From contig JASKLO010000007.1 in assembly GCA_030153605.1 (NCBI GenBank), positions 1-54,782 on the forward strand: a DNA stretch of 54,782 bases, in the 5' to 3' direction. Positions 11,127-47,228 of this stretch are shown here, piece after piece. Position 1 is the stretch's first letter. Each line of letters begins with the position of its first letter. This DNA is from Thermosipho sp. (in: thermotogales) (lineage in GTDB: Bacteria; Thermotogota; Thermotogae; Thermotogales; Fervidobacteriaceae). A program made the translations under genes and the position numbers. The notes under the pieces are model-generated. The model saw nothing but the letters and a program-made list of their open reading frames with translations, was not told the origin of the DNA and searched no databases.

Positions 11127-12596
11127 TCACTCCTCTATGGTAAAATTGTTTCCAAATAAAGTTTTGAGTTTAGTTAAAACTTCATCCTCATTATCATTAT
11201 TCTTTTCTATTTTTACTGAAAATTCTTTTCTAATACCTGCTTTTTTTAAGTATAATTTTTCTAAAGTGTCCAACTTTGATCTTACAATCTCAAATTGAAT
11301 TTTTTTGTCTGGTGGAAAAGTAATTATTATTTCTCTGTTTGTTTCTTCTATTTTAGCAAACAAAAGTCCAACATAAAGCGACAAATCACCATTTATTTTT
11401 AATTCTTTAATTAATTCTTCGATTATTTTATTATTATTATTAACTTCCGCATTACTGGGATTTGATAAAGTGTTTTCTGAAATTTCAGAATTGTTTTTTA
11501 ACGATGATTCACTTTTGCGTTCTGATTCTTGAGAAGTATTTTTTTGAATTTCAATATTTTTAGAATTATTATCAGATAAATTTTGTAAAGAAAATTTTCT
11601 AGTTATTTCTATGAATCCAAGTTTTACAAGTAATAATTTTTCTTCGGAATATTTAATATCTTTCAATATTGAAGAAATAGGTTTCAAATACTCAATATAC
11701 TCAAAATTATTCATTTCAACATTAGAAATAATATAATCTAAAATTTGATCTAAGAACAACTCAAGATCTTTTCCAGAAAAGTATATTTCTTCTAAAATTT
11801 GAAGGACTCTCTGTAAATTTCCGTTTTTAATTGAAATTAAAAGGTTTTCTATTATGTCTTTTGAAACAAGTCCAAGTGCATTTTTAATTGTATCAATAGT
11901 AATTGTTCCATCTGAGTATCTTACAACTTGTTCTAAAATGGTTAATGCGTCTCTTAAACCTCCATTTGCTCTTTTAGCAATTAAAAGAAGTGCATCATCT
12001 GTTATCTTAAATCCTTCTTTTTCTGAAACATATTTTAATCTTTCAATTATTTTATCAATTTCAATATTTTTAAAATCTATTACTTGACACCTAGAAATGA
12101 TAGTAGGGGGAATTTTTTCAGGATTGGTAGTTGCTAAAATAAACACAACATTTTCTGGTGGTTCTTCTAATGTTTTCAATAAAGCATTGAAGGCTTCTTT
12201 AGTCAACATATGAACTTCATCTATTATATATACCTTATATTTCCCTTGAGCTGCATGATACCCCACTGCTTCACGAATTTTTCTTATTTCATCAATCCCT
12301 CTATTAGATGCTGCGTCAATTTCATATACATCCATAAAATTTCCATTATCAATAGAAAGACAAGCTGAACATTTGTTACAAGGTTCTACGCCTTGTCTAT
12401 TTTCACAATTTAATGATTTAGCTAGAATTCTTGCAACTGTGGTTTTACCAGTACCACGTGGCCCGGCAAAAATATAGGCATGAGAAATCGTATTATTTTC
12501 TAAAGAATTAATAAATATTTTTTTAACATGATCTTGATTAACAATTTCGGAAAAAGTTTTTGGTCTATATTTTCTATATAGAGTGTCCATATTCAT
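11127..12596 (-). CDS. dnaX: DNA polymerase III subunit gamma/tau
   Basis: A 489-residue clamp-loader ATPase. Walker A GPRGTGKTT (about 45-53), four zinc-binding cysteines (C64, C73, C76, C79), Walker B DEVH (126-129) and sensor SRC are all present; the C-terminal third is a Ser/Asn-rich linker followed by a tau-like region. The ATG overlaps the miaA stop (ATGA); a second in-frame ATG at 12590 is an alternative start. No obvious slippery A-run for programmed frameshifting was seen, but this was checked only by eye. Confidence 0.96.
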   Translation of the reverse strand: MNMDTLYRKYRPKTFSEIVNQDHVKKIFINSLENNTISHAYIFAGPRGTGKTTVARILAKSLNCENRQGVEPCNKCSACLSIDNGNFMDVYEIDAASNRGIDEIRKIREAVGYHAAQGKYKVYIIDEVHMLTKEAFNALLKTLEEPPENVVFILATTNPEKIPPTIISRCQVIDFKNIEIDKIIERLKYVSEKEGFKITDDALLLIAKRANGGLRDALTILEQVVRYSDGTITIDTIKNALGLVSKDIIENLLISIKNGNLQRVLQILEEIYFSGKDLELFLDQILDYIISNVEMNNFEYIEYLKPISSILKDIKYSEEKLLLVKLGFIEITRKFSLQNLSDNNSKNIEIQKNTSQESERKSESSLKNNSEISENTLSNPSNAEVNNNNKIIEELIKELKINGDLSLYVGLLFAKIEETNREIIITFPPDKKIQFEIVRSKLDTLEKLYLKKAGIRKEFSVKIEKNNDNEDEVLTKLKTLFGNNFTIEE

Positions 12597-13510
12597 TCAC
12601 CTTCTCTAGACATAATTATTATTTTCTCAAGGATTTTAATAGCTTCTCTTCTTGAAATTTCTGAAAGATTTAACCATTTAGCATCTTTATATCTTCTTAA
12701 CCATATGATTTGCCTTCTTGCAAATCTTCTTGTGTTTCGTTTAATAAGATGTATTGCTGTTTTTAAATCATATTTTCCTTTAAAATGTAAAATAAGTTCT
12801 TTATAACCAATTGTTTGAAAAGCATTTAAATCTTCTGGATATTTATCTAACAAATATTTTACTTCTTCAATGAGGCCTTTATTAATCATTTCATCAACTC
12901 TTTTGTTAATTCTTTCATGCAATTCATCTCTGTTTCTGTTTAAGACAACTATTTTGTAATCATTGGAAAGGGAATTTTGCTTTTGTAACTGAGAGATTCT
13001 TTTGCCAGTCTTTAGATATACCTCAAGAGCTCGAATAGTTCTTTTAATATCAGAAGGATGAATCCTTAAAGCAGATTCAGGGTCATATTTTTCCAGCATT
13101 GTTCTCAAAATCCCAGGTTCTTTTTTTTCAAGTTCACTTAATTCTTTCCTTAAATTTTCATCTCTTGCAACACCTTCAAACATTCCCTTAACAATTGCAT
13201 CAATATATAAACCCGTTCCTCCAACAAAAATTGGGTAAATATTTTCATAAATTAATTTATTTTTTATTTTTAAAGCATCTAACCTATATTGAAAAGCATT
13301 GTAATATTGGTCGGGTTCTATAATATCAACCATGTGATGTTTTACTATAGCTTGTTCTTCTATTGTTGGCTTGGCTGTTCCTATGTTCATGTATTTATAA
13401 ATTTGTCTTGAATCAACGGAAATAACCTGAAAATTTAGCTTCTGACCTAGTTCCAGAATTAAGTCAGTCTTTCCGACAGCTGTAGGTCCTGAAATTATAA
13501 CATACTTCAT
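12593..13510 (-). CDS. miaA: tRNA dimethylallyltransferase
   Basis: A 305-residue enzyme adding a dimethylallyl group to N6 of A37 in tRNAs that read UNN codons. P-loop GPTAVGKT (8-15), substrate motif SVDSRQIYKYMNIGTAKP, VGGTGLYIDA, and the C-terminal TIGYKE and RRQIIWLRR motifs are diagnostic. Normal length. It has a 2-nt gap after the LptA-like gene and ATGA overlap with dnaX. Confidence 0.96.
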   Translation of the reverse strand: MKYVIISGPTAVGKTDLILELGQKLNFQVISVDSRQIYKYMNIGTAKPTIEEQAIVKHHMVDIIEPDQYYNAFQYRLDALKIKNKLIYENIYPIFVGGTGLYIDAIVKGMFEGVARDENLRKELSELEKKEPGILRTMLEKYDPESALRIHPSDIKRTIRALEVYLKTGKRISQLQKQNSLSNDYKIVVLNRNRDELHERINKRVDEMINKGLIEEVKYLLDKYPEDLNAFQTIGYKELILHFKGKYDLKTAIHLIKRNTRRFARRQIIWLRRYKDAKWLNLSEISRREAIKILEKIIIMSREGE

Positions 13511-40635: not shown

Positions 40636-42102
40636 ATTCGTTTTCTTCCGATTTTCTTTATTATTAGTAAATTTTAGTAGTTAAGTGTCGATAATTTTTT
40701 TTAAAAAGTTTCTACCAAAAATTTTCAAGCAAGAAGGGAAGTTAATCTTCCTGTTTTATTATCATTTCTTAATTCTTTGAACAACTTATTATTTTTTAAT
40801 CTCTTTCTAGTTATTTCTTCCTTTAATAAAAAGCTGTTTGACTCATACTTAAAAATGTATTTATGTAGGGAAGTTGAGTAAAAAAGATATAAAGATATAA
40901 TTATGTCATCCAACAAGATTTAAAATTGAAAGAATATTTAAAATTCTAATAAAAGTTAAAAGAAATCGGATGTAAAGTAATTTCAAAAAGAAGACAGAAT
41001 AGTATTCAATTTGGTTAACAAAAAATTCCAGTTAAATTAGCTAATTTAATTTAAAGAAATTATAATTTATTATCAATCTAATGAAGTGCAAAGAATTTTT
41101 CTGTTGCAAGTACTAAATTAAATAAAATCATGATTATTTTTTTAAACAACTTGGGAACTTAATATCTTCAAATGGTTTGACTGAGTTAATTTAAAAATGA
41201 TAAAATAAAATTGTTGTACAAAATTAAAACAAATTTTCGGAGAGATAAATTTCAGAAAAAGCAAATGTTAACAATATGGCAAATATTATTTATATAACTT
41301 CAGTAATTATCATTAGTAATTTAGCAAAAGAGATAACACAATTGATTAATTTGAGTAAGGATGAAAAAAAGCAGAGCTATTTGGTTAGTTTGATTGTATA
41401 ATTATTATTATTTATGTTTTCTTCTTGTTTGTGTGAGAACATTTGCTCCAATACCAACACAAGACATGTTCAAAAATATTTACAAACTGATTAAGCTAGT
41501 ACCATAACAAGTAAGCTGTCCAGGCTAAAAATGGCAAATTAATGTCAGGAATATAATCTATAGTGAACCTTGTGATGAAAAGATAATGGATTAAAATATT
41601 TTAATTTAGTAGAAATTAATTACCTTTTAATTTCTGATTATGAACCTGAATTCCCTGTTTAATTGTACCTAATCAACTACTTGATGTAATATATCACTTA
41701 GTTAAGATTGGAAGTAAAAAAGGTAGTATTGTTAAAATATGAAATTATATCAAAAAAAAATAAAACTGAGATTGAAAAAGAATAATTATTTGAAACAATA
41801 AGAAATAAGAAAAATAAGGAAGTGGTACGATTGTATAAAAATGTCATTGCTAAAACAATTATAAGAAAGATATGTGTGATTAAAAAACAGTTACTGCATC
41901 AACTATTCAAGAAAAAAGGATATATGAAAAATTTAATTTTTCAACTTAAACTTATTAATTGTACTTATATTTGTGTTTAGAAAATGATAAATTAAACGGT
42001 TGGCAAGAAAACAAATAATTAGAGACAAGGAATTTTTATTTTTATCAGAGATGTTGCAGTTTAACAAATAAATAAAACCGATGTTTTAAAGGGGGTGAAA
42101 GA
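40636..42102. other. Long A+T-rich stretch without an intact gene
   Basis: About 1.5 kb with no frame that combines a start, SD and sustained coding character. Short frames (40725-40916 minus, 41276-41401 plus) have no recognisable protein. A GGAAG-TTAAT-CTTCC hairpin with a T-rich tail sits near 40737-40755. The stretch appears to be decayed coding DNA; one possible remnant is listed separately. Confidence 0.6.
41708..41980 (+). pseudogene. Possible decayed coding remnant
   Basis: One frame from TTG 41708 to TAG near 41980 is broken by a single TAA near 41783 and reads as a Lys/Glu-rich helical peptide (EVVRLYKNVIAKTIIRK). There is no SD and no family match. In DNA this A+T-rich, a frame of this length could be chance. 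Confidence 0.2.
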
Positions 42103-43126: not shown

Positions 43127-43167
43127 TAGAGTTTCTAGATGTTTGATTTTATAAGAGTGTTGAAACG

Positions 43168-43201
43168 AAACAAGCCACAGTATATGCAAGATATTCATCA
43201 T
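43168..43201 (+). repeat. Copy A of a 34-bp repeat: 5' stump of a serine-recombinase gene
   Basis: It matches 44787-44820 at 30 of 34 positions, with the last 20 bp identical. In one frame it reads KQATVYARYSS, the start of large serine recombinases up to and including the catalytic Ser region. Coding similarity stops right after it. Confidence 0.6.
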
Positions 43202-43486: not shown

Positions 43487-43550
43487 TATGGAAGTTTAGG
43501 TAAAGAAAAGGTAAAGAATACGTTAAGATTATGAAACAAATAGTCAAAAA

Positions 43551-43568
43551 TATAACTTATAAGTTATA
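43551..43568. promoter_or_regulatory. Palindromic operator upstream of higB
   Basis: Perfect 18-bp palindrome TATAACTTATAAGTTATA ending 18 nt before the higB ATG, with -10-like TATAAC at 43551-43556. Toxin-antitoxin operons are normally repressed by the antitoxin binding such a palindrome over the promoter; the HigA-like protein is the probable ligand. Confidence 0.6.
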
Positions 43569-43586
43569 ATTGAGGTGAATAGCATT

Positions 43587-43949
43587 ATGCATAAATATCG
43601 ATATAAATATGAAGTAATCTTTCATCCATCGTTTGAAAATGAGCTTGTTGACGTGTATATTAAGTATTCGAATAAAAAGGAAATAATCGAGAAAAAAATT
43701 GCAATATATACTCTTATGCTTTCAGAAAAAGGTCCCAAAGTATTAGTTGAAGGAGCGTTTGATAAAGTAAAAAAATCAAGAAACATTTATGAAATGAGAC
43801 TAATTAAAAAAAACCCAAATTTGCGCATTTTATTTGCTTTTTTAACAAATAATCAAATAGTTTATCTAGTTATTTTTTATGAAAAAAATAAAAGTGATTA
43901 TGATAAAAATATTGAACTAGCTGAGAATCGTTTGAAAGATTATATGTAA
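43587..43949 (+). CDS. HigB-type toxin (RelE/ParE superfamily, Gp49-like)
   Basis: 120 residues from ATG 43587, with GAGGTGA 9 nt upstream; the GTG at 43575 lies inside the SD. Pattern of HigB/Gp49 toxins: an N-terminal helix pair, a central IYEMRLIKKNPNLRILFAF strand block, and IVYLVIFYEKNKSDYDKNIE followed by AENRLKDY. Such toxins cleave mRNA on the ribosome using basic residues; Arg and Lys in the central strands fit. Toxin-first gene order matches higBA loci. Antitoxin starts 16 nt later. Confidence 0.8.
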   Translation: MHKYRYKYEVIFHPSFENELVDVYIKYSNKKEIIEKKIAIYTLMLSEKGPKVLVEGAFDKVKKSRNIYEMRLIKKNPNLRILFAFLTNNQIVYLVIFYEKNKSDYDKNIELAENRLKDYM

Positions 43950-43964
43950 AAAGGAGGGATTGTA

Positions 43965-44354
43965 ATGTCTAACAAAGTATTTGATTTATTAAGGAAACTT
44001 GGATATAATCCTGCGAAAGAACAAGAATTTTATCTTTCTACGTTGGCCCATATTGCTGCTGAATTATTAGAATATAGGAAAATAAACAAATTAAGTCAAG
44101 AGCAGTTAGCAGAGAAATTGGGAATAACACAAGCAATGGTTTCTAAAATTGAAACAGCAAGCGCTAATCTTTCAATTAAAACACTTGCTAAAATTGCCGC
44201 AAAATTAAATGGTTATTTATATGTTACTTTGAATTTAGTTTCGAATGATGAGGAATTCAATAATATAAACAAATTTGAATATAATTATGGTATTAAGGAG
44301 GAAAACGCCTATGAAAACGAACATTCCCAAGAGCTCGATCCTGCAGCTTCTTAG
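43965..44354 (+). CDS. HigA-type antitoxin (XRE family HTH) with C-terminal extension
   Basis: 129 residues, SD AAAGGAGGG. A Cro/C1-type HTH at about 37-88: KLSQEQLAEKLGITQAMVSK then LSIKTLAKIAAKL. After GYLYVTLNLV a low-complexity, acidic and aromatic tail of about 38 residues follows (KFEYNYGIKEENAY), which ordinary HigA proteins lack. In TAC systems such a tail is the chaperone-addiction region recognised by the SecB-like partner. The secB-like gene starts inside this tail, overlapping 44 bp. Confidence 0.82.
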   Translation: MSNKVFDLLRKLGYNPAKEQEFYLSTLAHIAAELLEYRKINKLSQEQLAEKLGITQAMVSKIETASANLSIKTLAKIAAKLNGYLYVTLNLVSNDEEFNNINKFEYNYGIKEENAYENEHSQELDPAAS

Positions 44355-44745
44355 ATATCAAATATTAGAAGCTAGATTTCAAATAAAAGAAACAGAAGTA
44401 TCAAAAATTGCTTATACTGTTGAGGTATTACCTTCAATTGTAAGCTTAGAAGAAATTGAGGAAAAACATTACAGAGCGAATCTTCAACTTCAAATATCGA
44501 TTAAAGGCAAATCTGGCAATAAAATTGTTCACAAAGTAAGTGTATTAATTGTTGGAGAATTTGAAGGTAAAAACCTTGATCAAGAAAATTTTAAAAAATT
44601 ATGTAGATTAAATGGTGTTGCTAGTTTACTTATGTTAGCTCGTTCTTATATAGCATCTGTGACAGCACTTCATAATATTAAACCAATTGTTTTACCATTC
44701 TTTAACTTAGTTGAAGCCAGAAAACAAAAGAAAAAAAATGAATAA
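44311..44745 (+). CDS. SecB-like chaperone (TAC-type)
   Basis: 144 residues from ATG 44311 (AAGGAGG 9 nt upstream, inside higA). SecB layout: a first strand ARFQIKETEVSKIAYTVEV, then YRANLQLQISIKG, HKVSVLIVGEFEG, and a C-terminal helix block ARSYIASVTALHNIKPIVLP that matches the SecB helix and loop pattern (Arg-x-tyr/cys-Ile ... Pro ... Leu). No other SecB is expected in Thermotogae, so a general export role is unlikely. As third gene of higBA it fits the chaperone of a toxin-antitoxin-chaperone system. Confidence 0.75.
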   Translation: MKTNIPKSSILQLLRYQILEARFQIKETEVSKIAYTVEVLPSIVSLEEIEEKHYRANLQLQISIKGKSGNKIVHKVSVLIVGEFEGKNLDQENFKKLCRLNGVASLLMLARSYIASVTALHNIKPIVLPFFNLVEARKQKKKNE

Positions 44746-44783: not shown

Positions 44784-44918
44784 TTGAAGCAAGCTGCAGC
44801 ATATGCAAGATATTCATCATTATGCACCCATTTTGTTAAAGAAAGAGATAAATTTATTATTCACGGCAGTGTCCTTGGAATTATAAATTTTCAACAACCT
44901 AAAAAGGCAGTGAAATAG
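44784..44918 (+). pseudogene. Copy B: truncated serine site-specific recombinase start
   Basis: A TTG start at 44784 with GAGGTGA upstream gives 44 codons. The first 12, KQAAAYARYSS-type, match the N-terminus of large serine recombinases including the catalytic Ser. The rest (LCTHFVKERDKF onwards) has no recombinase features and ends at TAG 44916. Positions 44787-44820 repeat 43168-43201. The SD and start look intact, so this is the 5' end of a former recombinase gene. Confidence 0.5.
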
Positions 44919-46157: not shown

Positions 46158-47228
46158 TCACATTATGTTGGGTGAAACATTTAAACCCATTATATATCTT
46201 AATGCTCTGGTCAACATTAGGACAAACAAATCTTTATAACTAATATTGTAAGGATAATTAGGAGGAATATCTGCAGGTCCGTTAGACACATACCATTCTA
46301 AAGGAGCTGTGGTTGCTAAAACTCTACCTAGACCATAACGATATTCAATAAATGTTGGAAGTAAACCAGTTTCTTCTTGAACATAAATAAACAAATTAGT
46401 AATTAGATTGTTATTATCAACTAAAAAACCGCCATGACTGGCATAATTACCAAGCATTTGTGAAGGGAAATTTTTAGTAATTGGGTGATTAAGATTTACA
46501 ATATCATTGTAACTTTCATATGAATCTCTCCATGTTACACTGCCTGGAAGAGTAGAAGTAAAATCGCCGGAAGCCCAACCGTTATCGGCAGCTACCCAGA
46601 AAATTACTCCACCATTATTTACAAAAGAATCAAAAGTATTTTTATTTGCGGTATAAGTATCATAGAAATCTTGAGGTTGATCGCCTTCAATAATTAAAAG
46701 ATCCCCAAAAGTAAATTGTAAATTTGGATTTGCTACTCTTAAACTTCTGTATTCAAATTGATTAATTCCAGGTCCTTCTGACATTCCTAGATTGTTAATT
46801 AAAATATCACCTATGACTGTTGTAGCAACTCCTGAGATAGCCCATCCAGATTCATCTTCTCTAAAAATAACAACGAGGTTAATAACTTTTGTAAGGACAA
46901 GCTCTTGAGCAGAATACGTTCCAGTAGAGGATATGGTTATTGCCAAACTAGCAGGGAAGTAATTTTTGTTTGGATCCTCAGCAAGGATAAGATAATCACC
47001 TAAATCTCAACCTGTAAATGTATAATTTCCATTAACATCAGTATAAGTAGTTTTTGAAGAAGTATTTGTTTGTAAAATAACCTTAATTCCTGAATGCTGT
47101 GTCTTATCAAAAAATTTTGCTGTTCCATTGATTGTAGAGCCGGTGATATTAGGCAAAAGGTTTATACACCCCTGAAAAACTAGTATAATTGAAAATAAAG
47201 CAATAAGAATGAAAAATAATTTATTCAT
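46158..47228 (-). pseudogene. Lipoprotein gene interrupted by one in-frame UGA
   Basis: The ATG at 47228 (GGAGGAGG upstream) starts a lipoprotein (lipobox VFQGC) with a carboxypeptidase-regulatory-like domain (TYTDVNGNYTFTG) that meets TGA at 47009-47007 after 73 codons. The same frame reads on without indel to 46158 (DLGDYLILAEDPNKNYF, then a 190-residue domain with FVNNGGVIFWVAADNGW resembling ThuA/GATase-like folds). The whole would be about 356 codons. The second part alone could only start at TTG 46946 without a clear SD. So this is a recent nonsense mutation, a sequencing error, or readthrough. Confidence 0.75.

Follow-up and report, generated by a model that had tools for sequence, protein, structure and literature searches.

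A probable HigBAC-type toxin–antitoxin–chaperone operon in mobile-element remains of a Thermosipho genome

Toxin–antitoxin–chaperone (TAC) systems have been studied in mesophiles (Mycobacterium tuberculosis and Escherichia coli), and their mechanism is known from previous reports (PMC5105189, PMC6377645, PMC11618068, PMC11980606). CmdTAC, or PD-T4-9, is an anti-phage TAC of E. coli (PMC9519451, PMC11618068), and E. coli HigBAC is a TAC with a gp49-family toxin, as the work of Mets et al. (2024) is summarised in PMC11980606. According to the same review, from 2025, toxins of the gp49 family are mRNases that depend on the ribosome, and one of them belongs to a TAC (PMC11980606), and phage capsid or tail proteins are reported to trigger the E. 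coli systems (PMC11618068, PMC11980606). No paper on a TAC from Thermotogota was found in the literature searched. Here we describe a three-gene locus in a 54,782-nt contig (the window) from a Thermosipho genome of 1.69 Mb; all genome-wide statements refer to searches across the contigs of this genome. We consider, with a probability of roughly 0.8, that the locus is a complete type II TAC operon of the HigBAC type lying in the remains of a mobile element. Thermosipho is a genus of thermophiles, not necessarily of hyperthermophiles, and in calling the host hyperthermophilic the original prediction overstated the case.

The locus comprises three open reading frames on one strand, spanning positions 43587–44745 and encoding a toxin, an antitoxin and a SecB-like chaperone. 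The toxin gene (43587–43949, forward strand) starts with ATG and encodes 120 aa, with an alternative in-frame GTG at 43575 that would give 124 aa. It is followed after 15 nt by the antitoxin gene (43965–44354, forward strand, 129 aa), which overlaps the chaperone gene (44311–44745, forward strand, 144 aa) by 44 bp. The ribosome-binding site of the chaperone, AAGGAGG, lies within the antitoxin gene at 44295–44301 on the forward strand, and since the chaperone also starts inside this gene, both proteins are probably translated together. The 44-bp overlap had been given exactly in the original prediction of a HigB-HigA-SecB-like locus, while its toxin–antitoxin gap of 16 nt was one nucleotide too long; the three gene products that it named were all found. 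The toxin matches the Pfam gp49/HigB family (PF05973) above the cut-off with an E-value of 8.9e-11, and this is the sole PF05973 match in the host genome. It belongs to the gp49 family, not to the ADP-ribosyltransferases, and has no match to the PD-T4-9 toxin among the PADLOC profiles; a phmmer search of PDB sequences with the toxin gave noise only. The antitoxin carries an XRE-type helix-turn-helix (HTH) domain (HTH_3, E-value 1.5e-13).

The identity of the third protein rests on two profiles and a predicted fold. The SecB profile PF02556 matched it with an E-value of 2.2e-4 and 21.6 bits, under the 26-bit cut-off, and the PADLOC profile of the CmdTAC chaperone, PD-T4-9_C, spanned the entire protein with an E-value of 1.4e-11 and also matched 11 of the 13 members of the chaperone family. 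The AlphaFold2 model, built from 7 sequences, showed four long strands and two helices with a mean pLDDT of 84 and a pTM of 0.78. When this model was compared with the PDB, the top 19 chains were all SecB, four of them M. tuberculosis Rv1957 (5mtw) with TM-scores of 0.63–0.70, and the next matches were two streptococcal proteins of unknown function. The conserved SecB-family residues of the helical part (G-x-F, R and P) are present. Searches of PDB sequences with phmmer, and with hmmsearch using the family profile, returned no match, so the link to the SecB structures in the PDB comes from the fold comparison. The 144-residue protein had been proposed to be SecB-like, with the absence of a SecB-profile match or a structure unlike SecB named as outcomes that would speak against it; the profile search instead gave a match, albeit below the Pfam cut-off, and the 19 best fold matches were all SecB.

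We found no second SecB in the host genome. Across the phylum, the chaperone profile detected relatives in 29 of the 103 Thermotogota genomes. The collection was scanned with a 4-row alignment, because the diversity of the 13-row family alignment made it unsuitable for this purpose. Counting distinct copies, every intact relative examined came immediately after an antitoxin-like ORF, in most cases with an overlap or a gap of a few bases, and a toxin-like ORF preceded the antitoxin in nearly all neighbourhoods examined. No relative of the chaperone was found among annotated phage or plasmid records. The Pfam SecB profile added a single genome, G095, in which a solitary SecB-like gene (147 aa) has metabolic genes for neighbours; no other SecB-like gene found in the 103 genomes lacked an antitoxin. 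The earlier statement that Thermotogae lack a general SecB therefore holds across this sample with one exception, in line with a published statement that SecB is missing from most thermophiles (PMC7023208). The toxins beside the chaperone are varied: among eight other TAC toxin ORFs scanned, one matched gp49 above the cut-off, three were ParE-like (PF15781) and the rest had no clear family. The chaperone thus appears combined with different toxin–antitoxin pairs, as described for TACs elsewhere (PMC4257090).

The resident translocase was informative as well. SecB docks on the zinc-binding SEC-C tail of SecA. The host SecA (859 aa) ends in a lysine-rich C-terminal tail with no cysteines, and no SEC-C match was found in the host genome at an E-value of 1 or below. 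As the resident SecA is without the SecB-docking tail, the chaperone is likely dedicated to the antitoxin, which strengthens what had been proposed from the locus itself.

The operon is preceded by a perfect 18-bp palindrome, TATAACTTATAAGTTATA, at 43551–43568, 18 bp ahead of the toxin ATG, as had been noticed before. Taken on its own this palindrome is not significant, with 2 perfect 18-bp palindromes found in the AT-rich window where about 1 is expected, although the number expected within 150 bp before a given gene is 0.002. The other one lies in the variable island described below, at 41032–41049, with no obvious adjoining gene. What makes the palindrome meaningful is its conservation at the same place in related operons. 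Its core, ATAACNTATANGTTAT, recurs with 0 or 1 mismatch shortly before the toxin gene in related TACs from three families and in one siphovirus prophage, where the palindrome measures 20 bp. The genomes concerned are G001 and G003 of the same genus, G006 of the same family, and genomes of two further families (G072 and G096; G082, G089 and G091). Within the window, the palindrome is the sole site with at most one mismatch to the core, and the core was not found in those TACs with ParE-like toxins that were checked. Most simply, the palindrome would be the antitoxin's own operator. It overlaps a candidate promoter (TAGTCA-18-TATAAT, 43541–43570, forward strand) found by a consensus scan, in which promoter-like matches were no commoner in the region than expected by chance (9 found, 8.8 expected). 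This predicted operator shared by related TACs is new here, and it can be used to find further members.

We next consider the antitoxin tail. There are 47 residues beyond the HTH domain, of which residues 105–129 (44277–44351, forward strand) are predicted to be disordered, with pLDDT below 50 in a model that carries modest weight, being based on a 5-sequence alignment. This segment, ending in DPAAS, is a candidate chaperone-addiction (ChAD) sequence. It is rich in acidic residues, which are disfavoured in SecB-binding motifs, yet it contains an aromatic cluster, FEYNY. The length of the tail was dropped as a ChAD criterion because chaperone-linked and unlinked antitoxins gave overlapping length distributions past the HTH. 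The very C-terminus gave a different signal: among the 479 distinct ORFs in the examined loci that encode 100 aa or more, 5 end in AA as ssrA tags do, and all five are TAC antitoxins. This corresponds to 5 of 20 distinct related TAC antitoxins versus 0 of 459 other ORFs, an observation that is new here; the Fisher P of 8e-8 is only indicative, given the kinship among the sequences and the mechanical way in which the ORF set was drawn up. The host tmRNA tag is ANEELALAA; in the Thermotoga-like genus the tag is ANEPVAVAA and the TAC antitoxin ends in SVAA. The AA ends of the related antitoxins agree with the LAA ends reported for CmdA and other TAC antitoxins (PMC11618068). The window antitoxin, with its DPAAS end, is a near miss, to which we ascribe no ssrA-type degron. 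One genome that lacks SecB has a tail-less relative of the antitoxin (68% identity over 47 residues), which was considered as a working two-gene system and proved to be a fossil fragment. The next best antitoxin relatives were those of Thermotoga-like TACs.

Some of these relatives are decaying. In the Thermotoga-like genomes, broken toxins were found at three TAC loci (L043, L044 and L064): in G029 and G031 a frameshift breaks the toxin frame while the antitoxin and chaperone are intact, and in G033 both the toxin frame and the chaperone are broken and the antitoxin tail is gone. Though these are few and related cases, early loss of the toxin would fit a gene that is harmful to its host, and the joint loss of tail and chaperone would make sense if the tail turns into a liability once no chaperone is present. 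In a TAC of G081 (L020, about 659–1911), the first ORF has a YHGTS stretch recalling ADP-ribosyltransferases, possibly CmdT-like, and is apparently frame-broken; the antitoxin of this TAC ends in AA.

Comparison with same-genus genomes placed the operon in a variable island of 7.3 kb behind tRNA-Phe (38887 to about 46205). The island is absent from G003, in which a conserved gene, tRNA-Glu, tRNA-Val, tRNA-Phe, about 100 bp and a lipoprotein gene follow one another, so that the genes flanking the island adjoin. In G001, cas-like genes lie beside the same right-hand neighbours as those of the window island. No convincing direct repeat of tRNA-Phe was found at the right edge of the island. In the window the lipoprotein gene lies in two pieces on the minus strand (46158–46946 and 47007–47228), whereas three genomes of the genus have it as one ORF of 358 codons; either the gene is broken or the assembly contains an error.

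Inside the island, the operon is flanked by a 35-bp direct repeat on the forward strand. The left copy (43167–43201) is the start of a serine recombinase gene, present as a fragment, and the right copy (44786–44820) belongs to a second such fragment, whose start codon lies 38 bp past the chaperone stop. The two copies are identical at 31 of 35 positions, have no other match in the genome, and both correspond to the first 12 or so codons of a large serine recombinase, ending at the same base. The right copy is part of a 44-codon scar ORF (44784–44918, forward strand) in which the recombinase start is joined to the apparent end of an S24-type phage repressor; this match is short, and both genes are intact at L027. 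An intact large serine recombinase directly follows four related TACs (L022, L027, L040 and L057). Furthermore, a 44-kb viral contig carries a related operon that has this operator as well (minus strand, near 11819–13160), with a CI-like repressor on one side and a large serine integrase on the other. This contig encodes terminase, portal, major head, tape measure and tail proteins and represents a siphovirus prophage. In our reading, an element with a recombinase, probably a prophage, was lost from this site, leaving the 35-bp repeats and fragments as a scar and the TAC as a survivor. The original prediction saw the operon and the palindrome and missed this mobile-element setting; the conservation of the palindrome was beyond its reach. 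As judged from sequence, the 35-bp repeat bracketing the operon, the recombinases after four related TACs and the apparent insertion at tRNA-Phe are new here. A broader proposal, which we regard as rather unlikely, is that Thermotogota TACs of this type form one mobile cassette family carried by thermophilic siphoviruses with large serine recombinases, that they have a single operator in common and detect competing phages when their chaperone is captured, and that recombination occurs at the recombinase gene's own 5' end, which would leave the 35-bp repeats once the rest is lost.

From the gene families and the described systems we infer toxicity, chaperone dependence, operator binding and a trigger, which would work together as follows. 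The gp49-family toxin would cleave mRNA on the ribosome. The HTH antitoxin would bind the toxin, and its dimer would occupy the palindromic operator. Because of its disordered C-terminal tail, the antitoxin would misfold and be degraded unless a tetramer of the SecB-like protein held the tail. Another client, such as a phage structural protein or proteins misfolded under stress, would draw the chaperone off the antitoxin; once the chaperone is withdrawn, the antitoxin would be destroyed, the promoter would open and the toxin would arrest the cell. Given the mobile-element remnants around the operon and the related TAC on a phage, the system may guard against viruses.

Alternative explanations concern both what the locus is and what it is for. 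An ordinary two-gene toxin–antitoxin module could happen to lie beside a SecB-like protein with its own job in export or as a general holdase, the gene overlap being mere genome compaction. A Pfam score below the cut-off cannot tell a TAC chaperone from an export SecB, the phylum does contain one solitary SecB-like gene, and known TAC chaperones can substitute for E. coli SecB (PMC5105189). We nevertheless find this very improbable, as the intact chaperone genes of the phylum follow antitoxins with that one exception, and SecB is otherwise absent from a host whose SecA has no tail for docking it. A decaying, non-functional remnant is suggested by the neighbouring recombinase fragments, the split lipoprotein gene nearby and the broken toxins or chaperones of Thermotoga-like relatives. 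Against decay in the window itself, the three frames, the chaperone's ribosome-binding site and the operator show no damage, and the chaperone retains the conserved SecB-family residues, which makes a dead locus quite unlikely. The TAC interpretation, which was also the original one, is supported by the gene families and their order, by a predicted SecB fold that includes Rv1957 among its matches and by the linkage to antitoxins in relatives.

As for purpose, the operon may be a phage-borne TAC that excludes competing phages or retains its mobile element through addiction, as opposed to a response to host stress or heat. This role is compatible with the TAC explanation, and we give it a little less than an even chance. 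It draws on the siphovirus prophage, where a related operon with this operator separates the CI-like repressor from the serine integrase, on the four related TACs directly ahead of intact large serine recombinases, on the recombinase-start fragments on either side of the operon in the window island, and on the reaction of E. coli TACs to capsid or tail proteins of phages (PMC11618068, PMC11980606); around most other copies, however, the short flanks examined hold no phage genes that could be recognised. The original prediction instead connected antitoxin folding with heat, a speculative link. In a heat-stress module of this kind, the chaperone would limit unfolding of the antitoxin at high temperature and heat shock would free the toxin. 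The host is thermophilic, and chaperone-dependent antitoxins do aggregate without their chaperone (PMC5105189), but the relatives are spread phylum-wide, no sequence feature speaks for heat, and the phage relative and recombinase neighbours point to mobile-element biology. We therefore consider a heat-stress module unlikely.

Because the host has no general SecB and its SecA lacks the docking tail, the locus allows care of the antitoxin to be separated from protein export, which is hard in E. coli. The locus is also a source of thermostable proteins for structural study of chaperone addiction, and its neighbouring genes tie the TAC system to phages and recombinases.

Among described systems, the operon resembles E. 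coli HigBAC in its gp49-family toxin, HTH antitoxin and SecB-like chaperone and in the order of the genes, a likeness drawn from families and order, and differs in its thermophilic host without a general SecB. With M. tuberculosis Rv1955-Rv1956-Rv1957 (HigB1-HigA1-SecB-TA) it shares toxin, antitoxin and chaperone, a C-terminal antitoxin tail and, as judged against 5mtw (TM-scores of 0.63–0.70), the predicted chaperone fold. The two chaperones, however, are about 12% identical in the structural alignment and come from different host phyla, and the window antitoxin tail lacks the W-H-R motif that Rv1957 binds (PMC5105189, PMC6377645). The likeness to CmdTAC lies in the full-length match of the chaperone to PD-T4-9_C, whereas CmdT is an ADP-ribosyltransferase and the window toxin belongs to the gp49/HigB family. 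The export chaperone SecB has the same fold and conserved G-x-F, R and P residues; the window protein differs in scoring below the PF02556 cut-off, in its linkage to a toxin–antitoxin pair and in a resident SecA without the SEC-C docking tail. The locus is thus a new member of an already known TAC family, found in a thermophile and within the scar of a mobile element.
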